Of a stretch of DNA of 33,207 bases, positions 16,804 through 33,207 are shown piece by piece. Under the pieces are notes generated by a model, which ran no database searches, was not told where the DNA came from, and saw only the letters and a list, made by a program, of their open reading frames with translations. A program made the translations under genes and the position numbers. The stretch comes from a virus. Numbering within the stretch: position 1 is the stretch's first letter; each line of letters begins with the position of its first letter. Location of the stretch: IMG/VR virus record IMGVR_UViG_3300014720_000104, positions 1-33,207 of that record. The stretch is one strand, 5' to 3'.

Positions 16804-17517
16804 ATGACGGAGAAAAATTATCCCTCGGGGTCAGTTTATCCAAATATTTGGTTTCAGGGTGGCGGTTATGCCTGCATCTGGTCATTCGGCGTCGCGCAGG
16901 CAATAAAAGAGTCAAAATTTAATTTCAGTAACGTTGGTGGGTATTCTGCCGGAGCTTTGGTCGCAACTTTTCTCTGCAACCCCCACACAAGTGTAGAAAA
17001 TTGTCTTGATTCTTGTTTTGATGGTCCTTACGGTCCAAAGAAAAGCATTTTTGCGCCCATAGGTCGACACCAAAGAAACATGACATACATGGCAGAAGCC
17101 TGTGCAGGTCATCCCCACGACTGGAATTGTAATTTTTACAATCAAAAACTGTGGATAACGATCAGGGGCTTGATGTCTTTCACAGGATCGTGGAGATCTC
17201 GATATAGAAACTATGATGATTTAGTAGATGTCGTAGTTTCTTCAGGATGCATACCTGGCATGTCCGGCGAGCTTTCAAATTGTTACTATCAAGACAATAG
17301 TGAAAAAAGAGGACCCACCATTGACGGAGGTTTATTTTCATCAACACCACCAGAATTCTGGAAAGGAGATACTATCATTGTATCTCCCTGGGGAAGCGGA
17401 GACATAAACATGAATCCGTCAGCTCGATTTTTAGATATCATAATACCAAGAATTGATAGACTTTGGATGTATTATCAACTTGGAGTAACGCAGGGGAGAA
17501 AATTTTTCTCGTCTTGA
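16804..17517 (+). CDS. Patatin-like phospholipase
   Basis: A 237-aa member of the patatin family, which hydrolyses acyl chains from membrane phospholipids with a Ser-Asp dyad. All landmarks are present in order: the Gly-rich oxyanion loop FQGGGY (18-22), the nucleophile elbow GYSAG with S48, the SSGCIPGM segment (146-153) that matches the family's conserved block before the Asp, and the DGG motif with D174 followed by LFSSTPP. There is no signal peptide or membrane helix, so the product should act from the cytosol or from the particle. It sits between the gp4-like nuclease and a RuvC-like resolvase, with no lysis genes in sight. No clear Shine-Dalgarno precedes the ATG. Possible roles are membrane damage at lysis, lipid remodelling, or interference with host defence. 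Confidence 0.87.
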   Translation: MTEKNYPSGSVYPNIWFQGGGYACIWSFGVAQAIKESKFNFSNVGGYSAGALVATFLCNPHTSVENCLDSCFDGPYGPKKSIFAPIGRHQRNMTYMAEACAGHPHDWNCNFYNQKLWITIRGLMSFTGSWRSRYRNYDDLVDVVVSSGCIPGMSGELSNCYYQDNSEKRGPTIDGGLFSSTPPEFWKGDTIIVSPWGSGDINMNPSARFLDIIIPRIDRLWMYYQLGVTQGRKFFSS

Positions 17518-18118: not shown

Positions 18119-18460
18119 ATGAAGCTAACAGTCGATCAACTTCGTCAAATCATCAGAGAAGAAGTTCAGAAAGTTGTTTTAGAATCGCCTGAGACAGAAC
18201 CACTTAATGAGGCCACTCGTGAACCTTCAAACCTCATAAAAGATTTGAAGAGACTTCCCACGGGAGGAAGAATAGAAAGTGTTAATCTCTTTGACTTTGG
18301 AAAAGATGGAATCAAAGCCGACATTGAAAAGAGGCGCGTAGGTCGTAGTTTTATTTACGCCCTCATCAAGCTGGACAAAAGAGGAAATCCAAGATTAGAA
18401 GAAGTTTTTGACACAGCAGATAAGCTCGCTTATTCCATCGGCGATTTCTCTTATTTTTGA
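18119..18460 (+). CDS. Small protein with MKLT-type leader, possible internal virion protein
   Basis: A 113-aa protein. The ATG at 18119 is chosen because it yields the leader MKLTVDQLRQIIREEVQKVV, shared with the proteins at 25942, 30926 and 31401; a longer frame from 17894 would overlap the resolvase gene by almost 200 bases. After the leader comes V-L-E22-S23, an (L/V)-x-E context like T4 prohead-protease sites. The body (from about residue 35) is a basic alpha/beta domain including GRIESVNLFDFG and RSFIYALIKLDKRG, with no family I recognise. It lies among DNA-metabolism genes rather than head genes. If the leader is a capsid-targeting sequence, this would be an internal, possibly injected, protein. 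Confidence 0.75.
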   Translation: MKLTVDQLRQIIREEVQKVVLESPETEPLNEATREPSNLIKDLKRLPTGGRIESVNLFDFGKDGIKADIEKRRVGRSFIYALIKLDKRGNPRLEEVFDTADKLAYSIGDFSYF

Positions 18461-18510
18461 TCGACCAACAAGTTTTGAACTGTTGAACTCGGCTATGGTA
18501 CTTTTGTATC

Positions 18511-19497
18511 ATGGCCGTTTTTAGCATCAGCGACAAACTTGCATTTTTCGAGTCTGTCTTCGGCAAAGGAAGGCTTTCGTCGAACGGCGTCAACTTCGAC
18601 GTTCGGTGTCCAATATGCAATCCTTCGGACGTCACGAAGAAGAAGTTGTCCATTCGTACTGACAACGATGCCAACCATTGTTGGGTCTGTGGTTGGAAGT
18701 CACGATCTGTCGCTCCTTTAATCAAGAAATACGGCACCGAGTCACAGTTATCGAGATATCGTGAATTATTTGGTGGGCCGGATGGGGGTGGAGAACTGGT
18801 CACTGGCGAGAAGGCCGAGGAGCAACGTCTCGAACTACCTAAGGACTTCTGCCTCCTGCCCCTCGCTAATCAGAACGATCCTGACGTGAAGGCGATGTGG
18901 CGATATCTCTTCGGCCGCGGTCTCACTGAAAGGGATGCGTGGTACTTCAAGTTTGGTATCTCCAACGAACCTCGGTGGAAGCGACGAGTGATCATGCCAT
19001 CCTTCAACTTCAAGGGTGAACTCAACTACTTCACGGCCCGTGCGATCGACAAGGACAGAAAGCCCAAGTACGACAACCCAGAGGTGGACAAGAACCCCAT
19101 CATCTTCAACGAAATCAACATCGACTGGACGAAGCGACTGGCGCTGGTGGAGGGCCCATTCGACCTCGTCAAGTGTCCGGACAATACCACAGCACTCCTT
19201 GGGTCCGATTTGGATGAGAGGCACGAACTCTTCAATAGAATCCTACTCAATAACACACCAGTGGCCCTTGCCCTCGACGGAGACATGTGGGACAGAAAGA
19301 CTCCGAAGATTGCGAAGAAACTCCAGGAGTATGATGTTGACGTTCAGATCGTAGATGTCCGCCCGTGGGGCGATCCTGGCTCAATGTCCCGCGCAGAGTT
19401 TGAAATCGCCTTGAAAGAAGCACGCTACCTCGACTGGAATGACAACTTCTTCATCAAGCTTAACAGGGTTATTAGCACCTCGTCTTTGGGAATTTAA
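18511..19497 (+). CDS. DNA primase (zinc-binding and TOPRIM domains)
   Basis: A 328-aa phage primase that would make RNA primers for lagging-strand synthesis with a replicative helicase not in this window. The N-terminal zinc module has C33, C36, C57 and C60 (RCPIC and HCWVCGW). After a linker, residues about 125-200 form the catalytic core entry (WRYLFGRGL, RRVIMPSFNFKGELNYFTAR). The TOPRIM site has E214 in LALVEGPFD and D256/D258 in ALDGDMWDRK. The length is close to that of T4 gp61. It ends 40 bases before a homing endonuclease gene that separates it from the recombination nuclease. Its central part is strongly G+C-rich (36 of 60 bases at 19141-19200). Confidence 0.9.
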   Translation: MAVFSISDKLAFFESVFGKGRLSSNGVNFDVRCPICNPSDVTKKKLSIRTDNDANHCWVCGWKSRSVAPLIKKYGTESQLSRYRELFGGPDGGGELVTGEKAEEQRLELPKDFCLLPLANQNDPDVKAMWRYLFGRGLTERDAWYFKFGISNEPRWKRRVIMPSFNFKGELNYFTARAIDKDRKPKYDNPEVDKNPIIFNEINIDWTKRLALVEGPFDLVKCPDNTTALLGSDLDERHELFNRILLNNTPVALALDGDMWDRKTPKIAKKLQEYDVDVQIVDVRPWGDPGSMSRAEFEIALKEARYLDWNDNFFIKLNRVISTSSLGI

Positions 19498-19499
19498 TA

Positions 19500-19531
19500 T
19501 TGATCACGCTGCTGATTATTGTGTATAATTA
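19500..19531 (+). promoter_or_regulatory. Promoter-like sequence before second homing endonuclease
   Basis: TTGATC (19500-19505), an 18-base spacer and TATAAT (19524-19529) form a good match to a bacterial sigma-70 promoter. The longer TATAATTA (19524-19531) also resembles a T4 late core. Transcription would begin at about the ATG at 19538, giving a nearly leaderless message, and no Shine-Dalgarno is present. Confidence 0.4.
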
Positions 19532-19537
19532 GCTCAT

Positions 19538-20437
19538 ATGGCACAGCATCAAACTATGATTGACTCTTTTGTGTGTCAAATGTGTTCAAAAGCCTTTAAA
19601 AGACTTGATCTTCATTTACGTACTCACGGTGTATCACCTTTAGAATACACTGAATTATTTCCTTTAGATGATTTTTCTAAAGTTGTAAACGTCAAGAAAG
19701 AAAAAATTAATAACCCACCAAGCAAAATACACGGAAATACAGGAAGAATTGCTTGGAATAGAGGAAGAAAATCTACTGAGGAAGAGAAAAGAAAGATCAG
19801 AGAGTCTCACTGGGCAAGAAAACCCCCAGAAGAAACTCTTGAAATTCGTAAAAAAATGTCAATCAATGGTAGTAATACCATGAAGAAAATTAATGAAAAT
19901 GGCAAGGCATTTCGAATGCCCAAAGGTTATCACACTGAAGAACACAAAGTAAGAATGAAAGAAATCATGGCAAATAGAATTTGTTCATGGAACGAAGAAA
20001 TTAAGAAAAATCACTGGACGAGAAAATCTGCAGAAGAAGTTCAAGAAATAATCAATAAAATTCAACAAAATGGAACAAAAACCAATGCAAAAAGAGGTTG
20101 GTTTTTGTCTTCTAAGATGAATTGTGAATTTTATTTCATGTCATCTTACGAAGAAGAAAGAATGAAATATCTTGAGGAATGTTCATCAGTTTTATCTTTC
20201 ACAAATCAGCACAAGATATGGATAGACTACGAATGGAATGGAAGTGTACATCGATACAATCCTGACCTTATGATTGTATTCAACGATGGTCGCATACGTC
20301 TTGAAGAAATTAAAGGTGCAATTCTTGAAAAAGATAAAATTAGAGTTGATGCAAAAGAGAAAGCTTGTTTGATATTCGTAGAAAAAATGGGTTGGGAATA
20401 TAAAATGCTGTTTAGAAATGACCTGAGGACGATTTGA
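19538..20437 (+). CDS. Homing endonuclease: C2H2 finger, NUMOD3-like repeats, PD-(D/E)XK nuclease
   Basis: A 299-aa free-standing homing endonuclease between the primase and the SbcDC gene. A C2H2-type finger (C13, C16, H26, H30) is followed by GVSPLEYTELFP, a tail common after this finger type in phage endonucleases. NUMOD3-like repeats follow (GRKSTEEEKRKIRESHW near 76 and GYHTEEHKVRMKEIM near 134). The nuclease domain has SSYEEERMKYLEE, then NPDLMIVFNDGR and EEIKG, the same PD-(D/E)XK plan as the endonuclease at 15383. The gene is A+T-rich (20 G+C in 60 bases at 19861-19920) against G+C-rich flanks, a sign of recent arrival. Its TGA overlaps the TTG start of the next gene, and its last codons contain that gene's ribosome-binding site. 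Confidence 0.88.
   Translation: MAQHQTMIDSFVCQMCSKAFKRLDLHLRTHGVSPLEYTELFPLDDFSKVVNVKKEKINNPPSKIHGNTGRIAWNRGRKSTEEEKRKIRESHWARKPPEETLEIRKKMSINGSNTMKKINENGKAFRMPKGYHTEEHKVRMKEIMANRICSWNEEIKKNHWTRKSAEEVQEIINKIQQNGTKTNAKRGWFLSSKMNCEFYFMSSYEEERMKYLEECSSVLSFTNQHKIWIDYEWNGSVHRYNPDLMIVFNDGRIRLEEIKGAILEKDKIRVDAKEKACLIFVEKMGWEYKMLFRNDLRTI
20425..20429 (+). promoter_or_regulatory. Ribosome-binding site for SbcDC gene inside the homing endonuclease
   Basis: GAGGA four bases before the TTG at 20434, within the final codons of the homing endonuclease. An in-frame TGA at 20419-20421 rules out a longer SbcDC protein, so the TTG start is well constrained. Confidence 0.65.
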
Positions 20438-23400
20438 TCATCGCGCACACTGCGGATGTGCACATCCGCGCCCTCTCTCGCCACGACGAGTATAGACAGG
20501 TTTTCAAGGCTTTCATTGAGGATTGCAGGTCGCAGAATGTAGACCACATCTTCATTGGTGGCGACATCTTCCATACAAAGGTGACCGGAATCTCACCGGA
20601 GTACATCGAACTCCTCACCTGGTGGTTGACAGAGATGACGAAGGTTGCACCCGTCCACATGGTCCTAGGCAACCATGACGGGAATCTCGTCAATTTGTCT
20701 CGTCAAGACGCTGTCACGCCAATCGTGGAAGCGATGGCGAACCCACGTGTCTTCCTCTACAAGAAGTCGGGAGTATATAATTTCGCACCAGGATACAACT
20801 GGTGTGTCTTCTCATGCTTCGATGAAGAAGGATGGAAGAACGTTTCTCCTGTCTCTGGGGACATCAACATCGCGACCTTCCACGGCCCTGTCAGAGGATC
20901 TGTGACCGAGACTGGATGGGACATCGACGAAGAGAACATTACTGCGGACTACTTCAAAGATTACGACTTCTGCATGCTCGGAGACATCCACAAGCAGCAG
21001 TTCCTCGGTTACAGGGATGGTAAGCCTTGGATAGGCTATCCTGGGACACCGATTCAACAGAATTATGCAGAAGAATTAAACCACGGTTACTATCTCTGGG
21101 AGATAAAGAATTCTTCTGATTGGGTTGTAGGTAATCGTCCTCTTCCTAATCCAAGGCCTTTCATTACCATTGATTGGGATGGTTCTCTTGAAAAGACGCT
21201 CAGACTGACTGAAAAGTGTCCTCAAGGAACGAGATTCAGAATCAGATCAAATGTTGCCATAACTCAGAATGACGTTCATCTTCTGTCGGAAACATTACGA
21301 ACTGCTCTTAATGCAACTGAAGTCACGTACAAGATTGATGCTCAGCTGGACACCCAGTTCGTGAAAACGAGCACCGCGACTGTCACAAAAAACGATCTTC
21401 GATCTCCTGAAGTCATAACAAAATTCTTAAGAGATTATTACCAAGAACTTAACTTGTCAGATTCTGAACTGGATGGTCTTGCAGCAACTGCGAAATCATA
21501 TCTTCAACAAGTTTCTAACGTAGACGATTTGTCACGTAATTCCAAGTGGTCGTTACGTCGAATGGAATGGAGCAATTTGTTCGCTTATGGAGAAGACAAC
21601 GTCGTCAATTTTGACAAACTTAATGGTATTGTAGGCATTTTTGGCCCTAACAGAACGGGTAAGTCTTCTATCGTTGGTACGTTGATGTATTCGCTCTTCA
21701 ACGCGACTGACAGGGGACCTGTCAAGAATATCAACATATGCAACGTCAGGAAGGACTATTGCTCTGCTCAGGCCATACTCGATCACAATGGAACGACGTA
21801 TGTAATTGAAAGACAAACAACCAAATCAACGAGCAAGAAAGGTGCGGTGAGTGCTAGCACCTCTCTCAATCTCTTTAGAATGGCAAAAGGTTCGGATGAG
21901 ATGGAAGACCTCTGCGGCGAGCAGAGAAGCGACACAGAGAAAACGATTAGGGCTCTCATTGGTAATGCAGATGATTTTTTAATCACCTCTCTGTCAGCTC
22001 AGGGTGAAACAAACGCATTCTTGTCGCAAGGTTCTACCAAGAGAAGAGCCATACTCACCAAGTTCTTGGACCTGGACATCTTCGATAGGATGCATGAACT
22101 GGCCGCAAAAGAAGTGACATCAGTAAAGTCACAGTTGAAAAATTTTCCTGATAGAAATTGGGATGAGCTTAAGCAGCAAAATGAATCTTCTTTGAGAGAA
22201 TGTCAGGAAAAGATCGAATCTCTAACGAGCAGTATGACGGAAGATCAGATGTCTTTGACGCTACTTCGATCCGAACTGTCTCGTCATAATAGTTCTCCTG
22301 TAACGCAGGATGACGTTGATGCTCAGCGCAAGAGAGTCGCTGATCTTGAAACAAAATCTCAAACGTGCAAGAAGTCTATTGAGGATCTTGAGAATGAGAT
22401 TTTATCATTGCAGACAAAATCCGATGCTTTACAGGTCATCGTCGACTCCATCGATGTGTCATCTCTTCGAGACAAGCAAGAAGCTCAGAGAAAGATACTT
22501 TCGGCCATCTCCGAGTTGAAGCACGTTCATGACAAGGAAAATGCCGTCCTAGCCCAGCAGAAAAAGTCTTTAACAATTTTAGATGAAGTTCCATGTGGAG
22601 ATGAATATCCGTCATGTAAATTCATCAAGGACGCTCACCTCAACAAGAAAGAATTACCGCATCAGATCCGCAAGGTCTCAAAAGCTCTTAAGTTACTTGA
22701 AGATGCCGGTGAATCATTGGAGAAAGTCAAAGATGATTCCATTAAAGACAAATTGGAAAAACATGAGAAGGCAACCCAACTTCATTCAAAGATTCATTTA
22801 GAGATCTCCAAGAAAGAAATGGAGATAGTAAAGATGAAGTCGACATGTGACGCTTGTGAAACTTCCGTTGTAGACGCCAGAAAAAAGTTACAGACTTTAG
22901 AAGAATCGTTCTTAAACGAAGAGAACGAAGAAGTTGTCACAATTCGTTCCAAGATGACTGAATTGTCGAATGTAATCAAAGAGCACGATCATCAAAAACT
23001 TGAATGCGCGTCCCGCCTTGGGAAGCTACAATCTTTGATCGAAAAATTACAGGATGAAAAGAAGACTCGTGACTCTCTCCTTAGAAACGTAAGAATGTAT
23101 GAACTTGTGGCGAATGCATTCTCAAAGAAAGGCATTCCGTTACTCGTCACGAAGACTCAACTTCCCCTCATCAACGCAGAGGTCGCCAAGATACTTCAAG
23201 GCATTGTGGATTTTACCATCGAGGTTGAATCTGACGAGGACACGGACTCCCTAGAGATATACATCAACTATGGAGATTCACGACGTATCATCGAACTGTG
23301 TTCTGGCATGGAGAAGACGATATCTGCGATTGCTCTTCGCGTCGCGATGATAAACATCTCTTCTCTGCCCAAACCCGATTTCTTCATCATAGATGAGGGA

Positions 23401-23574
23401 TTTGGTACACTTGATAGTTCGGGAGTTGAAGCTTGCGGCAGATTTTTAACATCATTGAAGCGTCATTTCAAGACCGTTCTTGTCATCACTCACGTCGATG
23501 GCATAAAAGACAATGCAGATCACATTATTGAGATTGTCAAAACTGAGAAAGATTCAAGAGTAGAGTATCAGTGA
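20434..23574 (+). CDS. SbcD-SbcC (gp47-gp46 / Mre11-Rad50) single-chain fusion
   Basis: A 1046-aa protein joining both subunits of the Mre11-Rad50-type DNA end-processing complex. The nuclease half (about 1-340) has D8 and H10 (ADVH), GGDIFH with D44, GNHD with N80 and H81, FHGPV, and GDIHK. The ATPase half has Walker A GPNRTGKSS (about 404-412), two long coiled-coil arms (about 560-720 and 740-890), the ABC signature LCSGME (955-960) and Walker B FFIIDEGFGTLD with D987 and E988. Between the arms lies CGDEYPSC (C721, C728), the likely zinc hook; a CDAC (805-808) also exists. In T4, gp47 and gp46 are separate proteins. The TTG start is forced by an in-frame stop upstream. Likely role: end resection for recombination-dependent replication and host DNA breakdown. 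Confidence 0.9.
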   Translation: MIIAHTADVHIRALSRHDEYRQVFKAFIEDCRSQNVDHIFIGGDIFHTKVTGISPEYIELLTWWLTEMTKVAPVHMVLGNHDGNLVNLSRQDAVTPIVEAMANPRVFLYKKSGVYNFAPGYNWCVFSCFDEEGWKNVSPVSGDINIATFHGPVRGSVTETGWDIDEENITADYFKDYDFCMLGDIHKQQFLGYRDGKPWIGYPGTPIQQNYAEELNHGYYLWEIKNSSDWVVGNRPLPNPRPFITIDWDGSLEKTLRLTEKCPQGTRFRIRSNVAITQNDVHLLSETLRTALNATEVTYKIDAQLDTQFVKTSTATVTKNDLRSPEVITKFLRDYYQELNLSDSELDGLAATAKSYLQQVSNVDDLSRNSKWSLRRMEWSNLFAYGEDNVVNFDKLNGIVGIFGPNRTGKSSIVGTLMYSLFNATDRGPVKNINICNVRKDYCSAQAILDHNGTTYVIERQTTKSTSKKGAVSASTSLNLFRMAKGSDEMEDLCGEQRSDTEKTIRALIGNADDFLITSLSAQGETNAFLSQGSTKRRAILTKFLDLDIFDRMHELAAKEVTSVKSQLKNFPDRNWDELKQQNESSLRECQEKIESLTSSMTEDQMSLTLLRSELSRHNSSPVTQDDVDAQRKRVADLETKSQTCKKSIEDLENEILSLQTKSDALQVIVDSIDVSSLRDKQEAQRKILSAISELKHVHDKENAVLAQQKKSLTILDEVPCGDEYPSCKFIKDAHLNKKELPHQIRKVSKALKLLEDAGESLEKVKDDSIKDKLEKHEKATQLHSKIHLEISKKEMEIVKMKSTCDACETSVVDARKKLQTLEESFLNEENEEVVTIRSKMTELSNVIKEHDHQKLECASRLGKLQSLIEKLQDEKKTRDSLLRNVRMYELVANAFSKKGIPLLVTKTQLPLINAEVAKILQGIVDFTIEVESDEDTDSLEIYINYGDSRRIIELCSGMEKTISAIALRVAMINISSLPKPDFFIIDEGFGTLDSSGVEACGRFLTSLKRHFKTVLVITHVDGIKDNADHIIEIVKTEKDSRVEYQ

Positions 23575-23852
23575 TGGAGTGGAAAACTTATACCAAGTCT
23601 CGTTTGATAGCGCAGCATCCTGCAGGTTTTTACATCATAAAACCTGAAAATTATGACCCTGGCGATCCCATATTTTGCCCTGTTTGTGACGTCATAATGA
23701 ACAACTCTTTTGATGAAGAAGCATACATCAAATTTCAGTGCTGTGACCTGTGCGCTAGCAACTGGGCACGTCCAAATAAAGACAAATGGGCTCAAGGTTG
23801 GAGACCTACTTCGGAAGAAGTGGTGAATAAATACAAGGTCAATCATAATTAA
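23574..23852 (+). CDS. Small zinc-ribbon protein
   Basis: A 92-aa protein whose ATG overlaps the SbcDC stop (TGATG), implying coupled translation; the GTG three bases upstream is a less likely start. Two Cys pairs, FCPVC near residue 41 and CCDLC near residue 62, should bind one zinc ion as a zinc ribbon. The N-terminus WKTYTKSRLIAQHPAGFYII is beta-rich and the C-terminus is basic and Trp-rich (NWARPNKDKWAQGWRP). The family is unknown to me. The position between the recombination nuclease and the packaging genes, and the fold, suggest a nucleic-acid or protein adaptor. Confidence 0.8.
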   Translation: MEWKTYTKSRLIAQHPAGFYIIKPENYDPGDPIFCPVCDVIMNNSFDEEAYIKFQCCDLCASNWARPNKDKWAQGWRPTSEEVVNKYKVNHN

Positions 23853-23873
23853 AATCCGTAGGAGCCTCCACAC

Positions 23874-24257
23874 ATGCCCAAGAAACTCGACATAAACGCA
23901 CTAGGCCAGGCGATAGACACGACCTGGGGAAGGTCGTCGACACCAAAGACCGCATCATACTCTGTTAAGTTTTCTTTCATGGGTGACAGTCGTCTTCTTG
24001 CTTCTTACAAAGTAATTGTCAATTTTGTTAGCGAAAAGCAGATGATCGAAATGAAGAGGAGCTGCCTCGAAGAATCCGAAGGCGTTATCGCAGAGCACGT
24101 TAAGTTTGTCAAAGAAACGTACAAGCAGCTAACAGGTGATACTCTTGCTTTGAAGGAAGAAAGCGCCACCGATTCTCTTGAGATTATTGGATTCAATGTT
24201 CACAATCCCAAGAGAACCGCGTATTATAGGCGTAAGGTGGTTTTTGAGATTGCATGA
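23874..24257 (+). CDS. Unknown protein directly upstream of terminase
   Basis: A 127-aa protein I do not recognise. It starts MPKKLDINALGQAIDTTWGR, continues with a beta-strand pair (YSVKFSFMGDSRLLASYKVI) and a long helix (about 62-90), and ends in a basic strand (TAYYRRKVVFEIA). Its stop overlaps the terminase ATG as ATGA, so the two are probably co-translated. That invites the idea of a small terminase or packaging accessory, but no helix-turn-helix is evident, and T4 gp16-like proteins are mostly helical. GGAG at 23861-23864 is the probable ribosome-binding site. Confidence 0.7.
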   Translation: MPKKLDINALGQAIDTTWGRSSTPKTASYSVKFSFMGDSRLLASYKVIVNFVSEKQMIEMKRSCLEESEGVIAEHVKFVKETYKQLTGDTLALKEESATDSLEIIGFNVHNPKRTAYYRRKVVFEIA

Positions 24258-25873
24258 GTAAAGCTCCTCCAATGTCTCGGCAGGCACAAGTTGCCGAGAT
24301 CTTAAAATGTGGTAAAGATCCATCGTACTTTATGAAGAAGTACTGCAAGATCCAGCACCAGTTGAGAGGTTTGATACCCTTCGACACGTATGATTTTCAG
24401 GATGATTGTGTAAGAGACTTCCAGAAACACCGCTTCAACATAGTACTCAAGTCTAGGCAGTTAGGACTCTCCACGGTCTCGGCTGCCTATGTCGTTTGGT
24501 ATGCGATCTTTAAGAAGGACAAGAACATCCTCATCATCGCGACCAAACTCAATACGGCCATCAATTTCATCAAGAAGGTGAAGACGATGCTGGACGGTCT
24601 TCCACCTTGGTTGCTTCTCACCAAATTTGAGCCTACGAAGCAGTCCATCAGGTTTACGAATGGATCTACAATAACGGCTGTGCCGACGTCGCCAGACGCC
24701 GGACGTTCTGAAGCCTTAGCACTTCTCATTATAGACGAAGCAGCATTCATTAGAGACTTTGATGAGATTTGGACGTCTCTCTACCCGACCCTGTCTACCG
24801 GTGGTTCTGCAATTATCTTGTCCACTCCGAATGGTGTGGGTGGTCAGTACTACAAGCTGTGGACTGAGGCCGAGTCTGGTGCCAATGACTTCAATCCTAT
24901 AAGACTTCCATGGGATGTGCACCCAGAGCATAACCAAGAGTGGTTCAGTAAGGAAACCAGAAATCTAACAAAGCGGCAGATTGCACAAGAGTTTCTTTGT
25001 GACTTCGTGTCTTCTGGTGACACATTCCTTCAACCAACAGAATTTGAAAAACTTAGGGGGCTGATCAAACCTCCTCAGCTAAAAGAAGGTCCTCAAAATG
25101 GAGTTTGGATCTGGAAGAACCCGGAGCAAGGTAAAAAGTACGTCATATCCGCCGACGTGTCTCGTGGAGATGCAGCCGATTTTTCAACATTCCATGCCAT
25201 AGACTACGAAACTTGCGAGGTGTGTGTTGAGTTTATGGGCAAAATACCACCCGACAGATTCGCAGAACTTCTCTCCACATACGGACGTCGATACAATCAG
25301 GCCCTCATTTGTCCTGAACAAAATACTTTCGGCTATTTCACGTGTGTCAAACTTCGAGATGAAGGATATCCCAATCTATACTATCAACAGAATGTTGGAG
25401 ACCTTTTCGGATACAAACCAGTAGATCCTGAAACAGTTCCTGGGTTTTCAACACAGACCAAAACTCGTACGCAGATACTCACCAAGCTTGAAGAATCGAT
25501 TAGAAATTCACGGCTTAAATCGTACTCACAACGTCTTTACGATCAGTTACAGGCCTTTGTTTGGAACGGAGCAAAAGCTCAGGCTGCAAAAGATGCTCAT
25601 GATGATCTTATCATGAGTTTAGCGATTGGAACTTGGTTGGCTGCCGGTGATGGCGGTACAGATGCTCAAGGGATGGCGATGGCGATGGCGATGCTTAAAG
25701 CAACATCTGTCGGCAATAGGAATGTCAACGATTTACCTGGCAAGATAAATGAAGTAAAGCCCGTGCCTAATCCTCACATTCAAGGTTTCACACCCGACAA
25801 AGTACACCAACCACGAAAGCCTGAAGACATAAAACATGCTGACGTTTCAGATTTTTCCTGGCTGTTCAGGTGA
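24254..25873 (+). CDS. terL: Terminase large subunit (gp17-like)
   Basis: A 539-aa packaging motor with ATPase and nuclease domains. The ATPase has the adenine-binding FQDDCVRDF near 48-56, a T4-type deviant Walker A SRQLGLST (67-74), Walker B LLIIDEAAF with D161/E162, and the coupling motif ILSTPNG near residue 190. The RNase-H-like nuclease has SADVSRGDAADFSTF near residue 300 and the final acidic motif DAHDDLIMSLAIG near 455-465. It pumps DNA into the prohead through the portal encoded downstream and cuts the concatemer. A hexanucleotide GATGGC run in the C-terminal part encodes GMAMAMAM. It is coupled to the 127-aa gene by ATGA. Confidence 0.94.
   Translation: MSKAPPMSRQAQVAEILKCGKDPSYFMKKYCKIQHQLRGLIPFDTYDFQDDCVRDFQKHRFNIVLKSRQLGLSTVSAAYVVWYAIFKKDKNILIIATKLNTAINFIKKVKTMLDGLPPWLLLTKFEPTKQSIRFTNGSTITAVPTSPDAGRSEALALLIIDEAAFIRDFDEIWTSLYPTLSTGGSAIILSTPNGVGGQYYKLWTEAESGANDFNPIRLPWDVHPEHNQEWFSKETRNLTKRQIAQEFLCDFVSSGDTFLQPTEFEKLRGLIKPPQLKEGPQNGVWIWKNPEQGKKYVISADVSRGDAADFSTFHAIDYETCEVCVEFMGKIPPDRFAELLSTYGRRYNQALICPEQNTFGYFTCVKLRDEGYPNLYYQQNVGDLFGYKPVDPETVPGFSTQTKTRTQILTKLEESIRNSRLKSYSQRLYDQLQAFVWNGAKAQAAKDAHDDLIMSLAIGTWLAAGDGGTDAQGMAMAMAMLKATSVGNRNVNDLPGKINEVKPVPNPHIQGFTPDKVHQPRKPEDIKHADVSDFSWLFR
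25672..25693 (+). repeat. GATGGC hexanucleotide run in terL
   Basis: Three perfect GATGGC units plus GATG encode alternating Met-Ala in the terminase C-terminal region, after the nuclease motifs. This looks like a slippage-prone simple repeat in a flexible segment. Confidence 0.6.
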
Positions 25874-25890
25874 AATTTCATGTCGACGAA

Positions 25891-25898
25891 CATAAATA
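25891..25898 (+). promoter_or_regulatory. Late-promoter-like CATAAATA
   Basis: CATAAATA in the 68-base gap after terL differs by one base from the T4 late core TATAAATA. It lies about 40 bases before the ATG at 25942, a sensible distance for a leader that also contains GAGGT. It may drive the leader protein and portal. A single short match carries little weight. Confidence 0.3.
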
Positions 25899-25941
25899 AA
25901 ACATTGGCATCATCGCGCAAGATTGCTTATATTGAGGTCTC

Positions 25942-26232
25942 ATGGCAAAGATAACATTACAGACATTGAAAAAGATAATTCGTGAAGAGGTGACAATCCT
26001 TCGTGAAGGAGCCGACCACGACACAGCTTCCAAAGTAATGTCAGCTGCGACCAAGCTTCTTGGCGCCATCGAAGCGTTTAAAGAGAGTGCTAGTGAGAAG
26101 GCGAAGGCAGAAATGGGAACTAATCTTGATGGAGTCGAACAACTTCTCAACAGGATAGTGGCTTCTCCAATGCAATACGTCGATGCGACGAAGCCTCCTG
26201 CACAAAAAGTAACTCTGAAGCCTCAGAAGTAA
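25942..26232 (+). CDS. Small leader-bearing protein between terminase and portal
   Basis: A 96-aa protein with the leader MAKITLQTLKKIIREEVTIL, then R-E22-G23, giving L20-R21-E22 before Gly. This is the same layout as the protein at 30926. The rest is helical (ASKVMSAATKLLGAIEAFKE, then NLDGVEQLLNRIV) with a short basic tail. The ATG has GAGGT seven bases upstream by spacing. Its place between terminase and portal, where T4 carries tail sheath and tube genes, suggests a head-core or internal protein. I know no family for the body. Confidence 0.75.
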   Translation: MAKITLQTLKKIIREEVTILREGADHDTASKVMSAATKLLGAIEAFKESASEKAKAEMGTNLDGVEQLLNRIVASPMQYVDATKPPAQKVTLKPQK

Positions 26233-26258
26233 TTTTGTTGTATTGTAGAGAATCAAGG

Positions 26259-26280
26259 GCCGCTCCCAGAATGGAGCGGC
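26259..26280 (+). promoter_or_regulatory. Perfect GC-rich stem-loop abutting the portal ribosome-binding site
   Basis: GCCGCTCC (26259-26266) pairs perfectly with GGAGCGGC (26273-26280) around a six-base CAGAAT loop. The probable ribosome-binding site GAGAG begins at the next base and the portal ATG is at 26291. No T-run follows, so an intrinsic terminator is unlikely. It may tune portal translation, act as an mRNA processing site or bind a protein. Confidence 0.6.
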
Positions 26281-26290
26281 GAGAGCAAAA

Positions 26291-29200
26291 ATGGCCAAAA
26301 AAGAAGAACAAAACCTCTTTCAAAAACTTACAAAGTTATTTCGTAGTGGCCCTGTAGTCAAAAGAAAGATACGTGCGCTTGATACGACAGTTGCAGTCGC
26401 CGACAAGACGAAGTCTTCCGGCGCTTTGTTGTTTCAGAAGTCGATGGCACCAACGTACGCCACCATCACGGCGAATGCCTACAACCTGTCCGAGAGGTTG
26501 ATGCGATACCAAGATTTCGCAGAGATGGAATATTGTCTCCATGGCGATACTAAGATCGCTGTGCCTGGTGGCTATAAAACGATCTCAGAATTAGCTGCCG
26601 AATGTGAAGGTCGACCCGATCACACATTCATTGTGTATGCATACGATCATAATCTTCAAAGAATAATTCCTGCTCTCGGCAAACAGGCCCGCCAGACTCG
26701 GATCGATGAGTCTTACAAGGTCACTTTTGACAACGGACAACACATCATCGGGACTCCCAACCACAGACTCATGAAACGTGATGGGACCTTCTGCAAGATC
26801 GAGGACCTCAAGGTAGGTGATGCCATGATGCCCTTCTACCGGAGGGACTTATTCAACGGTTGCAAAGAAGAGGGCGAAGGTTATCGATGGATTTACACGA
26901 TGGACAAGCGTTCAAGCATGAATGGCTGGGTCGCCGAGCACCGAGTGATCGGAGAGATGCTGAAAGGATCTCCACTCGCTGAGGGTGAAGTTGTCCACCA
27001 CAGGAACTTCGTGAAGAGCGACAATCATCCCGAGAACCTCGAGGTGATGACCGAAAAAGATCACTTAAATCTTCATGCAAAGATACTCAACGGTGCCAAA
27101 TGGTCACAACAGAACTCGGGATGGATCGAACAGTTCAAAGCGAACCATTCCAAGTTCATGACGGAGAATAATCCTGCGGAGAGGAAGGACATCACTTTTG
27201 GTCGGATTCTTGAGGTCGCCGAGAGGACAGGTTTCAATTCGAAGAAGATGTGCGAAGTACTCGACACAGATCCTAACGTGATAAAGCGTAGACTTCGCAA
27301 GCACGGTTACCAGAACTTTGAGACATTTGCCAAGGCTTACAATCCCGACTGGCACAATCACGGGTGGGACAACAAGGGAGAGAAAAATCCTCGTTACGTC
27401 AAGTCCGTTACCTTCGACAAGATTTGTTCGAATTTCTCTAAGGGAATGTCGAACCATCAGTTGGCCGAATCTCTCGGAACTACAATCCACGTGATAGAAG
27501 GTAGAATCCGTGAGAGAGGCTACAGGAACTACTCCGATTTCTCATCTACATATGACAACCTTAAGGTCGTGTCTGTGGAACCGTATGGAGTGATTCCTCT
27601 GTTCGATCTTACAGTGGATGGTTACAAGAACTTCGCAACTGACACTGTCATTTCTCACAACACGCCTGAGCTGGCAGCCGCCCTTGACATCTACGCAGAT
27701 GAGACATGTGCCCAGGACGAGAAGGGCCGCGTTCTCCACATCTACTCGGACAACGAGAAGATCAAGCAGATTCTTGAGGACCTCTTCTACAACACACTCA
27801 ACGTGGAGTTCAACCTCCGTTCCTGGGTCAGAAATCTCGTGAAGTATGGAGATATGTTTCTCTACAACGACGTTTCTCCTGAACACGGAGTTATCAGCGC
27901 TTTTCCAATACCTGTCAATGAAATTGAACGCGAAGAGAACTACGATCCCAATGATCCTATGGCTGTGCGTTATCGCTGGGTCACTCTCGGTAATCGGACG
28001 TTGGAAAACTGGGAAGTCTCACACTTTCGCCTCCTCGGCAACGATATGTTCTTGCCATACGGTTCCTCTGTCATAGAACCAGCTCGAAGAATATGGCGTC
28101 AGTTGATCCTCATCGAGGACGCAATGTTGGTGTATCGTGTCGTTAGAGCTCCTGAGCGCAGAGTTTTCTATATTGACGTTGCTAACATTCCTCCCGAGAA
28201 TGTTCCTATGTACGTCGAGGAGCAGCGTAAGAATCTTCGTTCATCTCAGGTCATCGATAGGAATACAGGTCGTGTAGATCTTCGTTACAATCCTCTTTCC
28301 GTAGATGAAGACTATTTTATACCTGTTCGTGGCGGGGACTCAGGAACTCGAATTGACACTCTCGCAGGCGGACAAAACACGGCGGCAGTCGAAGATGTCG
28401 CTTATATTCAGAAGAAGCTGTTTGCTGCTCTAAAGATTCCACGAGCCTACCTCGGTTATGACGAGGCACTGTCAAGCAAGGCAACGTTAGCGCAGGAAGA
28501 TATTAGATTTTCGCGAACCATCAACGTTATCCAAAAGACTATCATTGCCGAACTAAATAAATTGGCGATAATTCACCTTTACGCTCATGGTTTTGATTCC
28601 GAAGATTTACAGAACTTTGCTCTGCGTATGTCTAATCCATCGACTGTTGCTCAACAACAGAAGCTTGAATTGTGGCGTGCTAAATTCGAGATAGCAGGAT
28701 CTGCTCCTGAAGGACAGATGTCCAAAGAATTCATCCGTAAGGAGATCTGGGGGCTGAACGACGACCAGTGCAAGGATCTTGACGAACAACGTCTGAAAGA
28801 GAAGCTTGTCGATCAAGCGATTGAGAGCGCCGAACCTGATTCTGGCGGTGAAGAAGAAGCGGCAGGTGGCGAAGAAGAGGGTGGTGAAGAAGCAGCCGGC
28901 GGTGAAGAAGAAGCTGGAGGCGGTGAAGAAGAGGGGGGTGACCTCTTTGCAGGTGACGACGTAAGTCAGAAGAATCCTTACATGGATCTCCTCACGGCAG
29001 GTGACGATCCTGAGGATGAAGAAGTTCCACTTAAGTTTTCCTTGAAAGACGTCGAAGTTCCTGTCAAGGCCCAACGTCAACTTGACAGGGCACTCTACAA
29101 CAGAGGAAGAATTAGACATCACGGTCCTTCAAAGACTCACATGCCTGATTTCAATAAAATGACGAAGGCAGACAGCAAGAGTTACTCGGATCCATATGAC

Positions 29201-29449
29201 AAGGAGTGGATATCCTCTTATGTTCGAAATCCATTTGGTGAATCGACGGTAAGAGAAATGTACAAGACTCCTATTGGTAATGAAATTTTTTCCTCTCTCA
29301 GGAACATGACATTGTCACCTAAATTCCAAAAAGTTGTGAAAAATTCCTCACAAACTCCACAAGTCCTCAGTGAATCAGATAATTTCGATGAGGCAGACGC
29401 ACGCGAACACAGAGAAGTCCTCATAATAGACGACGACGGGAGCAACTGA
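26291..29449 (+). CDS. Portal protein (gp20-like) interrupted by an intein
   Basis: A 1052-aa precursor; removing the 376-residue intein (82-457) leaves a portal of 676 aa. The joined extein reads QDFAEMEY then TPELAAALDIYADE, the conserved early portal segment. Later portal landmarks include IPVNEIER, MFLPYGSSVIEPARRIWRQL, EDAMLVYRVVRAPERRVFYI and the region around RAYLGYDEALSSKATLAQED. The portal is the dodecameric ring at the capsid vertex through which the terminase pumps DNA and which nucleates prohead assembly. A Gly/Glu-only tract (about residues 852-882) near the C-terminus resembles the acidic repeat of the scaffold candidate at 32251. The stem-loop and GAGAG before the ATG support the start. 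Confidence 0.93.
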   Translation: MAKKEEQNLFQKLTKLFRSGPVVKRKIRALDTTVAVADKTKSSGALLFQKSMAPTYATITANAYNLSERLMRYQDFAEMEYCLHGDTKIAVPGGYKTISELAAECEGRPDHTFIVYAYDHNLQRIIPALGKQARQTRIDESYKVTFDNGQHIIGTPNHRLMKRDGTFCKIEDLKVGDAMMPFYRRDLFNGCKEEGEGYRWIYTMDKRSSMNGWVAEHRVIGEMLKGSPLAEGEVVHHRNFVKSDNHPENLEVMTEKDHLNLHAKILNGAKWSQQNSGWIEQFKANHSKFMTENNPAERKDITFGRILEVAERTGFNSKKMCEVLDTDPNVIKRRLRKHGYQNFETFAKAYNPDWHNHGWDNKGEKNPRYVKSVTFDKICSNFSKGMSNHQLAESLGTTIHVIEGRIRERGYRNYSDFSSTYDNLKVVSVEPYGVIPLFDLTVDGYKNFATDTVISHNTPELAAALDIYADETCAQDEKGRVLHIYSDNEKIKQILEDLFYNTLNVEFNLRSWVRNLVKYGDMFLYNDVSPEHGVISAFPIPVNEIEREENYDPNDPMAVRYRWVTLGNRTLENWEVSHFRLLGNDMFLPYGSSVIEPARRIWRQLILIEDAMLVYRVVRAPERRVFYIDVANIPPENVPMYVEEQRKNLRSSQVIDRNTGRVDLRYNPLSVDEDYFIPVRGGDSGTRIDTLAGGQNTAAVEDVAYIQKKLFAALKIPRAYLGYDEALSSKATLAQEDIRFSRTINVIQKTIIAELNKLAIIHLYAHGFDSEDLQNFALRMSNPSTVAQQQKLELWRAKFEIAGSAPEGQMSKEFIRKEIWGLNDDQCKDLDEQRLKEKLVDQAIESAEPDSGGEEEAAGGEEEGGEEAAGGEEEAGGGEEEGGDLFAGDDVSQKNPYMDLLTAGDDPEDEEVPLKFSLKDVEVPVKAQRQLDRALYNRGRIRHHGPSKTHMPDFNKMTKADSKSYSDPYDKEWISSYVRNPFGESTVREMYKTPIGNEIFSSLRNMTLSPKFQKVVKNSSQTPQVLSESDNFDEADAREHREVLIIDDDGSN
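26534..27661 (+). mobile_element. Intein with HNH homing endonuclease in the portal gene
   Basis: A 376-residue in-frame protein intron. Its first residue is Cys (TGT at 26534) in CLHGDTKIAVPGG (block A), block B is GTPNHRLM, block F is LFDLTVDGYKNFATDTVI, and it ends in His-Asn (27656-27661) followed by extein Thr. All residues needed for self-splicing are present. The endonuclease region has HNH features: EHRVIGEMLKG, VVHHRNFVKSDNHPENLEVM and DHLNLHA. Two similar helix-turn-helix-like units follow (SKKMCEVLDTDPNVIKRRLR and SNHQLAESLGTTIHVIEGRI, each ending in a GY-x-N-(F/Y) turn), probably for target recognition. Insertion in a conserved portal motif is typical of homing elements. Confidence 0.93.
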
Positions 29450-29450
29450 A

Positions 29451-30302
29451 ATGTCAGCAATCAAGCACAACAAGAGAAGAAACAGCCTCCTCATCTACGA
29501 GTTTCTCGTGAGGACAATATCGAAGTCTATTGTAGAAGACGATAAGAAGAAGTCTGCCGCTGCCCTAAAGATATTGAAGAAACATTACAAGCCTGGCACT
29601 GAACTCTACAAAGAGTTTCGATTGATGAACGCCCTTGCAAAGACGACTGTTTCATCAGAACACGTTGCGGCTTCTATACTCAGCGAAGCGAAGGTCGCTT
29701 CTAACTCTTTTGATGCACAGAAGCTTGACAGAGAAAAGTCCATACTCATTAGAAACATCAATCACATGTTGAACGATGAAAATTTCTATGATCAACACGT
29801 AAATGAGTACAGAGAATTCGCCACAATACAAACTCTCATCAATGAGTGGAGATCGAGCGACAAAGATCTCAACACTCTCGCCAAGTTCGAAGATCAGCTC
29901 ATGAAGCACTTGGTCACTGAAAAAGTCCAAGCCCCCGATTCGACGATCTCGGAAGACACGACAGGATCTGCTCGTCTCCTCATGAAGGTTATGACGAAGA
30001 AACTAAATGAAAAGTACAGCGGTGTGCTTAATGAGCAACAGAAGTCGCTCATCAAGGCGTACGCTTACTCCACAGCATCTGAAGATCAGACTTCAATTCG
30101 TATGAAACTACAAGAGATAAAATCAGATCTTGTCGGTCTCATTGATGGGTATGAGACGGTAGCCAATGACTATCTTAAGAACAAACTGCAGGAGACCAAG
30201 GGCACTCTCCTCAGCGAGAACCTAGAACTCGTCGATGATGAGATGGTTACTCGCTTCATGCTCTACTCAAAACTCAGGGATGAGTTGGAATCTAAGGAGT
30301 GA
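29451..30302 (+). CDS. Helical protein between portal and prohead protease
   Basis: A 283-aa, strongly helical and charged protein. It starts with a basic segment (KHNKRRNSLLIYEFLVR), then long helices rich in Lys, Glu and Leu to the end (DEMVTRFMLYSKLRDELE). No enzymatic motif or membrane segment was seen. Genes in this slot of T4 (gp67, gp68) encode prohead-core proteins, so a core or portal-associated role is likely by position; I see no sequence match to those short proteins. GGGAG lies upstream of the ATG, one base after the portal stop. Its last codons contain AAGGAG, the ribosome-binding site for the protease. Confidence 0.78.
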   Translation: MSAIKHNKRRNSLLIYEFLVRTISKSIVEDDKKKSAAALKILKKHYKPGTELYKEFRLMNALAKTTVSSEHVAASILSEAKVASNSFDAQKLDREKSILIRNINHMLNDENFYDQHVNEYREFATIQTLINEWRSSDKDLNTLAKFEDQLMKHLVTEKVQAPDSTISEDTTGSARLLMKVMTKKLNEKYSGVLNEQQKSLIKAYAYSTASEDQTSIRMKLQEIKSDLVGLIDGYETVANDYLKNKLQETKGTLLSENLELVDDEMVTRFMLYSKLRDELESKE

Positions 30303-30306
30303 TACG

Positions 30307-30918
30307 ATGACACAGGATCTAAAACTACTCAATTCATACGAAGTCTTCGACTACACTCCCGACATGATCAAGGAGTCCCGTGAGCAACATGGTGGCAAAG
30401 TCGTGATGAAGGGAATTCTTCAGAAGGCAGATACACTCAATCAGAATGGCCGCATCTATCCGATGAATGTACTCGAAAGGGAAGTCCGCAACTATCAGAA
30501 ATTCATCGCAGAGAATCGTGCTCTCGGTGAGTTAGACCACCCGGACTCATCTGTGGTCAACCTCAAGAACGTCTCACACGTCATTAAGGAAGCATACTTG
30601 GACAGAGGCGTCGTCTATGGCACCGTGGAACTTCTCGACACACCTTCCGGAAAAATACTGCAGTCTCTGGTCGAGAGTGGAGTTAAACTCGGAATCTCTT
30701 CTCGTGGCGTTGGATCTGTCAAGAAGCAAGGCGATTACCACATTGTGCAGGACGATTTTCAACTCATATGCTGGGACTATGTGTCTGAACCGTCCACACC
30801 AGGTGCTTTCATGTTACCTGAGGGTCGCACGATAAATTCTTCAGAATTACGTAACATCTTTAACAAGTCTGACAGAATTGATCGTATAGTCAATGACATA
30901 TTGACCTCCAAGAAGTGA
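30307..30918 (+). CDS. Prohead maturation protease (gp21-like)
   Basis: A 203-aa serine protease of the T4 gp21 family (herpesvirus assemblin fold), which cleaves scaffold and capsid precursors after (L/I)-x-E. Key motifs are KGILQKADTLNQNGRIYP, GELDHP with H78 as the catalytic His, and GISSRGVG with Ser 131 or 132 as nucleophile. The later segment FQLICWDYVSEPSTPGAFML matches the family's conserved tail. The ATG at 30307 is chosen over an upstream in-frame start at 30235 because AAGGAG (30294-30299) is well placed and the longer form would overlap the preceding gene. It probably acts on the scaffold encoded at 32251, the unseen capsid protein, and perhaps the leader proteins. Confidence 0.92.
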   Translation: MTQDLKLLNSYEVFDYTPDMIKESREQHGGKVVMKGILQKADTLNQNGRIYPMNVLEREVRNYQKFIAENRALGELDHPDSSVVNLKNVSHVIKEAYLDRGVVYGTVELLDTPSGKILQSLVESGVKLGISSRGVGSVKKQGDYHIVQDDFQLICWDYVSEPSTPGAFMLPEGRTINSSELRNIFNKSDRIDRIVNDILTSKK

Positions 30919-30925
30919 GTTTCAC

Positions 30926-31348
30926 ATGAAGTTAACAAAAACAGAGCTCAAGTCATTGGTTAAAGAGTGCCTCACCGAGATACTCAGTGAAGGATTAGGT
31001 GCCGGCCTCGTCGCAAAAGAACAGACCAGCAGGGGATTGGTGGGCCAACAGTTCGAATCTCGTAAACCTCTTCCTGCTCCTCGGTCAGTTCCTACTGCTC
31101 ACTTAAAAGAAGCAATAAAGAGAGAGGCCGGCGGCAACAAAGTGATGGAGTCTATTCTCGCTGATACTGCTGCCTCAACACTTCCAAAATTTTTACAGGC
31201 AGGTGATGGAAAGTCACCAATGCCTGTCTCGGGTGGTGGTATCGTTGAACAGGTTGTTGCACAAGCCAATCCTGAAGATTTGTTCGGCGATGAGGTTGCT
31301 TCCAAGTGGGCATCACTGGCATTCTTGGATTCACCAACAAAGAAATGA
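30926..31348 (+). CDS. Leader-bearing small protein after the protease
   Basis: A 140-aa protein with leader MKLTKTELKSLVKECLTEIL, then S-E22-G23: L20-S21-E22 before Gly fits the T4 prohead-protease consensus. The body is Ala/Gly/Pro-rich with a probably disordered middle (ESRKPLPAPRSVP) and a helical end (NPEDLFGDEVASKWASLAFL). No family recognised. It starts seven bases after the protease stop, so it is expressed with the head genes, which fits an internal head protein. Cleavage at E22 would leave a 118-residue mature form. Confidence 0.78.
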   Translation: MKLTKTELKSLVKECLTEILSEGLGAGLVAKEQTSRGLVGQQFESRKPLPAPRSVPTAHLKEAIKREAGGNKVMESILADTAASTLPKFLQAGDGKSPMPVSGGGIVEQVVAQANPEDLFGDEVASKWASLAFLDSPTKK

Positions 31349-31400
31349 ACAATTGTGTTCGATCATATATTTACGCATTAGATTATCGTGAGGATTTGAC

Positions 31401-31646
31401 ATGAAGCTTACAAGCCAATTACTTCGTAGAATTATTGAAGAGGAAGTCGCCAAATTTGGTGACATGGAGTCAACTGAAGATCGTGCTAAGGACACTGAAG
31501 AAGTTGACGCAGACGAAATTGGCAGTGAAGATGTTGCCGCCAAGCACATCGACTTCATTAAGGCTCTCAAGATAGAAGAGAGCAGACTGCGCCGCCGCCT
31601 CGCCAAGATTCAAGAGACGAAGGCGCGTCTTTCAAAGAAGCTTTGA
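31401..31646 (+). CDS. Leader-bearing small coiled-coil protein
   Basis: An 81-aa protein with leader MKLTSQLLRRIIEEEVAKFG. An acidic linker (about 21-45) follows, then a helix likely to form a coiled coil (HIDFIKALKIEESRLRRRLA to ETKARLSKKL) with a very basic end. GTGAGGA (31389-31395) is a good ribosome-binding site. This copy lacks the (L/V)-x-E22 site seen in the other three; the nearest Glu-Ser is D21-M22-E23-S24. The acidic-then-basic layout and the location in the head block suggest a scaffold-like or DNA-binding internal protein. Confidence 0.77.
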   Translation: MKLTSQLLRRIIEEEVAKFGDMESTEDRAKDTEEVDADEIGSEDVAAKHIDFIKALKIEESRLRRRLAKIQETKARLSKKL

Positions 31647-32250: not shown

Positions 32251-33207
32251 ATGACCAAGCAATTGTACGAAGAGGCGTTAGCCGACGTAAAGAAGTTGAA
32301 GGAAGTTGCTGAAGACAACGCGAAGCGTGCTCTTCTTGAAGCCGTCACACCTCGCATCCGCGACCTCATCGAGAATCAGCTCCTTGGTGAGATGGGCGTC
32401 GGCGAGCTTGAGGCTGAGCCGGATCATTTGCTGATGGATGAACTTCCTACGGCTGTTCCTGCTGCAGGTGATTCCGATGCAGCGGCTGCCGCCATTTCGA
32501 TGCCTGATGAGGAAGGCAAGGTCACCCTCGACCTCGATGCTCTCAAGGTGTTAGGTACAGATGAGTACGAATTGAGCCTAGAGTCTGCAAAGAGCTTGGG
32601 AATGCTGCTCTCGACAACCAAATTTCGTGACACAGTTGTTGAATCCAAACTCGCAAACATCAAGCGCAGCGTCGAGTTAATTGGATCTGCCGGCCGCCTC
32701 GTGAAAGAGTCCAAGGGTTATTTGGACACTCTTTCTTCACTCATTTCAGAAGTGGAGAATACGTATTCGTACTTGCAGTCAGAGATGCAGGATTCTAAGA
32801 ACAAAGACTCGTATGAATCTGTCCTCGAGTCTCACTATACAACCCTCAACAAGCTCATGGAGCAGAAGATGATGAAGAAGAAGACGCTTTCAGAAGCAGA
32901 CGTAACACTCAAGCTCACCGGCATGCCTGATGAGTTGGACCTCGATTCAATCGGAGTTGACCTCATCACTGGTGAGGAAGGCGATGAAGGCGGCGAAGAA
33001 GAGGGCGGCGACGACCTCGGCGGCGAAGAAGAGGGCGGCGACGACCTCGGCGGCGAAGAAGAGGGTGGAGATGAAGGTGAAGAGTCCGAAGAGGGTGGAG
33101 ACGATGAGCTCGACCTCGGCGGCGATGAAGATTCAGATGAAGGTTCGGAGGATAAGATGGAATCACGTAGACTTGGAGACAACATTGTTGTCGAGATCGA
33201 CGAAGGA
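32251..33207 (+). CDS. Acidic scaffold-like prohead core protein, 3' end outside window
   Basis: 319 codons are visible and the frame runs off the right edge. The product is helical and acidic: an N-terminal helix (QLYEEALADVKKLKEVAEDN), an Ala-rich linker, a central region with coiled-coil potential (about 110-215, including KLANIKRSVELIGSAGRLVK and MEQKMMKKK), then a Gly/Glu/Asp repeat tract (about 245-300) and a more ordered end (SRRLGDNIVVEID). T4 places the scaffold gp22 after protease gp21, and both composition and position match here. Fusion to further domains beyond the window cannot be excluded. There is only a weak AAGAAAG ribosome-binding site before the ATG. Confidence 0.78.
   Translation, partial: MTKQLYEEALADVKKLKEVAEDNAKRALLEAVTPRIRDLIENQLLGEMGVGELEAEPDHLLMDELPTAVPAAGDSDAAAAAISMPDEEGKVTLDLDALKVLGTDEYELSLESAKSLGMLLSTTKFRDTVVESKLANIKRSVELIGSAGRLVKESKGYLDTLSSLISEVENTYSYLQSEMQDSKNKDSYESVLESHYTTLNKLMEQKMMKKKTLSEADVTLKLTGMPDELDLDSIGVDLITGEEGDEGGEEEGGDDLGGEEEGGDDLGGEEEGGDEGEESEEGGDDELDLGGDEDSDEGSEDKMESRRLGDNIVVEIDEG
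32991..33065 (+). repeat. 30-base tandem repeat encoding acidic decapeptides
   Basis: Two perfect 30-base copies (32991-33020 and 33021-33050) and a perfect 15-base third part (33051-33065), in frame. Each codes for the ten residues GGEEEGGDDL, written from any phase. Degenerate copies follow to about 33125. Perfect nucleotide identity points to recent slippage or unequal recombination. Confidence 0.9.

Follow-up and report, generated by a model that had tools for sequence, protein, structure and literature searches.

A shared N-terminal leader on otherwise unrelated proteins of T4-like environmental phages is a candidate capsid-targeting signal

In large environmental phages, most small genes have no assigned role. 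The stretch of DNA analysed here (the window, an IMG/VR record) is a 33.2-kb fragment of a T4-like phage genome. It carries genes for the baseplate and tail, the terminase, a portal with an intein and a gp21-type protease, and it ends within a probable scaffold gene (Table 1). Four of its proteins, starting at positions 18119, 25942, 30926 and 31401, begin alike, and a sequence-only reading had proposed that this common start recruits them into the prohead, where the gp21-like protease would cut it off. Here we ask whether the common start is real, how widely it occurs, and whether it is best explained as a signal for entry into the head.

Table 1 Leader genes and head-module features of the window (a slash marks the predicted cut)
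Feature	Position	Strand	Remarks
Leader 1, 22 codons	18119..18184	+	MKLTVDQLRQIIREEVQKVVLE/S, predicted cut after E22; profile 49.6 bits
Body of leader protein 1	18185..18460	+	Orphan, not in the head module; forms one of the 321 body families by itself
Terminase large subunit, head-module anchor	24254..25873	+	PF03237, PHROG 2
Leader 2, 22 codons	25942..26007	+	MAKITLQTLKKIIREEVTILRE/G; profile 37.3 bits
Body of leader protein 2	26008..26232	+	Between terminase and portal; 38-member syntenic family
T4-type portal with HNH-bearing intein inserted	26291..29449	+	PF07230, PF14890, PF13392
gp21-like prohead protease (Peptidase_S77)	30307..30918	+	PF03420 E=1e-26; PHROG 207 head maturation protease E=8e-51
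Leader 3, 22 codons	30926..30991	+	MKLTKTELKSLVKECLTEILSE/G; profile 34.4 bits
Body of leader protein 3	30992..31348	+	Immediately 3' of the protease; syntenic family
Leader 4, 22 codons	31401..31466	+	MKLTSQLLRRIIEEEVAKFGDM, without (L/I)-x-E end; profile 32.6 bits
Body of leader protein 4	31467..31646	+	Acidic, C-terminal helix; syntenic family
Probable scaffold/core protein, runs off the window end	32251..33207	+	Precedes the capsid gene in relatives; acidic repeats

Results

All four proteins start as the sequence-only reading had given them. The leader has the consensus MK(I/L)TKSQLKQIIKEEL..VLxE and spans about 22 residues. The search pattern MK-x-T-xxx-L-xx-II-x-EE, written as degenerate DNA and run across IMG/VR, matched at least 120 stretches, and a 22-position profile was trained on 179 leaders from other IMG/VR contigs, none of them from the window. 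With this profile the next-best start in the window reaches 4.6 bits, and the best score in control DNA (120 random viral loci, 1.1 Mb) is 14.0 bits. Given the gap between these values and the 33-50 bits of the four leaders, their likeness is not a product of chance. The window contains exactly four leader proteins, and their bodies, described earlier as unrelated, sort into four different body families. Searches of PHROG and Pfam returned no match for the body of leader protein 1 and no family match for the probable scaffold/core protein.

The copy at 18119 had been taken as a hint of a dispersed, genome-wide set. This gene is indeed distant from the head genes, other leader genes lie at a similar distance upstream of terminase in some relatives, and a scan of relatives for leader N-termini found multiple carriers per large record. 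A 298-kb relative of the window (G105) encodes 16 leader proteins, the large records G016 and G031 encode 29 and 25, and the large records G002 and G022 encode 12 and 6. Among the environmental viruses of IMG/VR we count at least 457 distinct leader copies; the 443 bodies long enough to be compared form 321 families, 289 of which are singletons. Leader genes are often arrayed, with up to 29 carriers per record, and an uncultured phage of 484 kb (LR756508) has at least 13 leaders.

Outside viral records the leader is rare. In bacterial and archaeal genomes (84,980 species), only 11 stretches matched, all on metagenome-bin contigs, and several of these are phage-like and packed with leader genes. 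In 8-kb stretches of two such contigs (L413 and L416), nearly every gene is leader-bearing, with 15 and 16 copies; the contigs were binned as Halobacteriovorax and Methylococcaceae, yet they resemble phage genomes. T4, Flavobacterium phage immuto, Microcystis phage Mel-JY01 and Rhodothermus phage RM378 gave no leader matches, and searching named records for the pattern, with 3 mismatches allowed, revealed no cultured carrier. When cultured phage records were searched by tblastn with a 23-residue leader, only marginal matches were returned; a query this short is insensitive, and it is mainly the pattern search that speaks for absence from culture. To our knowledge, no carrier phage is in culture, and we found no description of a leader of this kind, or of its motif, in the open-access literature.

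A leader that is removed in the prohead is expected to end in a site for the head-maturation protease. T4 gp21 cleaves after L/I-X-E (PMC9026906), and the sites in the T4 record are FLTE/A in gp23, LLRE/S in gp24 and FIAE/A in IPII and IPIII. In the window, Glu22 was correctly read as being followed by Ser at 18119 and by Gly at 25942 and 30926. The contexts V-L-E, L-R-E and L-S-E also hold, but the strict form (L/I)-x-E is present in only two of these three proteins. The protein at 31401, whose N-terminus is MKLTSQLLRRIIEEEVAKFGDMES, has no (L/I)-x-E site at the leader end.

The larger set gives a clearer picture of where the leader stops. In 174 leaders selected on residues 1-15 only, Glu peaks at residues 21-22 and information falls sharply to background from residue 23. 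The motif (L/I)xE occurs within residues 17-29 in 167 of 321 representative leaders, against a mean of 45 and a maximum of 65 when residues are shuffled (1000 trials). Its position ranges over residues 19-31 and is mostly 21, 22 or 27; a longer form of the leader ends at residue 27, also in (L/I)xE. A small residue (A, G or S) follows 43% of leader sites and 21% of body sites (p=8e-7). The canonical motif is absent from about half of the leaders, which may be cut at looser sites or left uncut. Synonymous codons vary freely within the leader, pointing to selection at the protein level, and a nucleotide-level signal was therefore rejected. The T4 late promoter TATAAATA was also considered; it is essentially absent upstream of leader genes and shows no enrichment in carrier genomes.

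In relatives, the head module consistently includes three of the four window leader genes, whose families differ in how the leader ends. In family 2 (25942), the motif is kept in all 36 members, allowing for a single F and a single V at its first position, and the Glu shifts between residues 21 and 24. Family 3 (30926) has members in the distant records G016 and G031; here LxE is kept in 26 of 26 members despite indels, and Gly comes next in 25. In family 4 (31401), the cut motif is found in 2 of 21 aligned members and is absent from 19, and the residues after the leader are conserved. Protein 4 may be a core component that docks without trimming at the leader end. Structure models of leader proteins reached moderate confidence only: AlphaFold2 (AF2) predicts a separate helix over residues 5-23 of leader protein 3, followed by disorder (mean pLDDT about 90 over residues 1-20), and in leader protein 2 the leader helix is predicted, with low confidence, to continue into the body.

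The encoded protease had been called gp21-like, and its PF03420 match (94 bits against a curated cut-off of 27) confirms a gp21-type serine protease of the Peptidase_S77 (T4 gp21) family. Of 50 long leader records, 33 have Peptidase_S77, against 2 of 49 controls, one of these above the cut-off (p=2e-12); among records of at least 100 kb the counts are 15 of 17 and 0 of 8. The sequence-only reading had raised the possibility that the leader is equally common in phages that lack such a protease, and it is not: none of 39 control records carries the leader, with up to 2 mismatches allowed. The median distance to the protease is also shorter for leader genes (11.6 kb) than for random places (22.9 kb; p about 0.002). 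It may be that a single clade contains all carriers; the 33 records would then not be independent events, and the association may partly reflect common descent.

All 17 leader records without the protease also lack a gp23-type capsid gene; a portal is found in two of them, in one case at the contig end. A diverged protease, sought with an iterated profile in four of the S77-less leader records, was not found. Because the capsid gene is missing too, these records are best read as fragments. A gp23-type capsid gene is shown in 8 leader-found records, and the protease is present in all 8.

If the leader is cut by this protease, its end is expected to resemble the site in the capsid protein. Capsid proteins of leader phages have (L/I)-x-E at a conserved propeptide junction in 28 of 29 cases, mostly before A, S or V, and this junction sits where T4 gp23 is cut (E65, FLTE/A). 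With a gp21-type protease encoded in the same phages, the protease, the capsid site and the leader end thus agree. The N-terminus of the major capsid protein is itself somewhat leader-like, mostly in the top 1-3% of non-leader ORFs, in close relatives but not in distant ones; since distant relatives lack this likeness, it was not used as evidence.

The bodies were searched for a common activity. Pfam and PHROG gave only scattered matches among 148 bodies (pentapeptide repeat, PAP2, GNAT, RMF), and there is therefore no common cargo activity; a recognisable activity is seen in few leader bodies. Known folds occur in L033:3609-4229 and L035:2501-3211 (pentapeptide repeats and a PAP2-type domain), and the GNAT and ribosome modulation factor models were each matched by single leader-body members.

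Discussion

We consider it probable that the leader is a capsid-targeting sequence that is cut off in the prohead in many of its members. It would most likely load a set of proteins into the head, because it ends in what appears to be the site of the phage's own head-maturation protease. In this mechanism, residues 1-15/16 (MK-I/L-T...L..II-K/R-EE) would form an amphipathic helix that docks the carrier onto the growing prohead core. The (L/I)-x-E would serve as the cut point of the protease at 30307 during head maturation, as suggested by the motif and by the homologous site in the capsid protein. By analogy with T4 internal proteins, the mature body would remain in the head and might leave it together with the DNA on ejection. 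The helix would serve for docking alone in head-module members that lack a site, the protein at 31401 among them, and these would be components of the core. Each sequence-level prediction tested came out in favour of the interpretation first drawn from the window, and it is supported at that level. The V-L-E end of the leader at 18119 and the site-less leader at 31401 count against it, as do T4, immuto and Mel-JY01, which bear an S77 protease yet are leader-free.

The same observations may be read in other ways. The leader could be a helix that docks proteins onto the core or scaffold and recruits them into the prohead but is generally not removed, its terminal Glu reflecting a helix-end preference. 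The roughly half of leaders without a canonical site fit this well, as do site-less leader 4 with its conserved following residues and the predicted continuity of leader helix 2 with its body. However, the motif shifts (residues 21-24 and 27) and is nevertheless kept, unlike a fixed helix end, small residues are enriched after the Glu, and the capsid protein, too, has this motif at its conserved propeptide junction. We regard uncut docking as a general explanation as rather improbable.

Early action is common among small phage proteins, and the majority of carriers are encoded in variable arrays away from the head module. Both points would suit a leader that binds a common host or phage factor (polymerase, chaperone, membrane or replication compartment), with carriers that are early host-takeover proteins unrelated to the head; moreover, the N-terminus of T4 gp23 is itself reported to direct proteins to GroEL (title of a work cited in PMC10052503). 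This explanation, which seems unlikely to us, leaves three things unaccounted for: the three carriers fixed in the head module, the gp21-type cut motif, and the association with and proximity to the protease. Tandem arrays of up to 16 copies in 8 kb (L416) point to duplication; on this view, the leaders would be remnants of one recently duplicated small gene family with diverged bodies, and the common start would have no targeting role. Against this, near-identical leaders are borne by bodies that show no detectable likeness to one another, some of them with distinct folds (pentapeptide repeat, PAP2). Only residues 1-22 are conserved, and only at the protein level, with free synonymous change; duplication would therefore need strong selection on the leader alone, which makes it very unlikely as the explanation.

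Among known systems, the closest to the leader is the T4 capsid-targeting sequence (CTS) of IPI, IPII, IPIII and the gp21-cut Alt propeptide. Both are short, N-terminal, start with MK and occur on unrelated small proteins, and both end in (L/I)-x-E before A, G or S; the phages concerned encode a gp21-type protease. A T4-type CTS is one peptide on unrelated proteins of a genome, with a gp21 motif at its end and an S77 protease encoded. Here, one leader is found on 321 body families; 167 of 321 leaders have the motif, with V-L-E at 18119 and no site at 31401; and the protease is encoded in the window (30307-30918) and in 33 of 50 leader records. In T4, the targeting (residues 4 and 7) and cutting (residues 8 and 10) parts of the 10-residue CTS appear separable (PMC9026906), which fits the conserved front half and mobile (L/I)xE end of the leader. 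Unlike the CTS, the leader has about 22 residues rather than 10, occurs on up to 29 carriers per record rather than T4's few, and is also present on fixed head-module proteins. It has no sequence similarity to the CTS (MKTYQEFIAE): IPI, IPII and IPIII score -25.7, -27.1 and -19.7 bits with the leader profile. The best explanation, as judged from sequence, is that the leader is a new signal for capsid targeting, analogous to the T4 CTS, unrelated to it in sequence and far larger in scale.

Other systems resemble the leader in part. The head propeptides of the giant phages SPN3US and phiKZ are likewise N-terminal on inner-head and ejection proteins and are cut after Glu by a gp21-related protease, but most exceed 100 residues and are cut after A/S/G-x-E (PMC5694885, PMC10052503), whereas the leader is short and ends in (L/I)-x-E; these propeptides are not known to us from the two papers to share a leader of this kind. 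P1 DarB has an N-terminal signal, no longer than 30 residues, through which a heterologous protein can be brought into the phage head (PMC9024508). Unlike the leader, it has a single carrier, and the Dar proteins lack a consensus (PMC9024508). The first 27 positions of PHROG 15212, a family of unknown function, weakly match leader protein 4 (E=0.033), in the leader only.

We see about an even chance of a broader picture, in which a clade of large uncultured T4-like phages would use one cleavable leader to send up to about 30 distinct and rapidly changing proteins from each virion into the host along with the DNA. This would far exceed the injected arsenal of T4, and many variable small-gene arrays would encode injected effectors. 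If the capsid-targeting reading is correct, a readable head tag would place hundreds of orphan families in the virion in one step. Candidates for injected proteins of host takeover or anti-defence could then be listed and searched, and T4's capsid-targeting signal would be joined by a second one of unrelated sequence. The prediction is checkable in virion mass spectra as peptides that begin after the predicted Glu.

Several neighbouring genes are of separate interest. The portal intein carries an HNH endonuclease domain (PF13392), and comparable long intein-bearing portal ORFs are found in many relatives and are absent from others. Three genes on either side of the leader gene at 18119 (15383-16369, 16372-16773 and 19538-20437) have in common a TnsA-like nuclease domain (PF08722), which in the third falls below the cut-off, and one of them has a NUMOD3 motif; all three probably encode homing-type nucleases. 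In Mel-JY01, the head module includes, a short way past the prohead protease, a gene annotated as ribosomal protein S21 (L419:8110-8337). At 16804-17517 the window encodes a patatin-like phospholipase (PF01734, E=1e-11), flanked by nuclease and resolvase-like genes.
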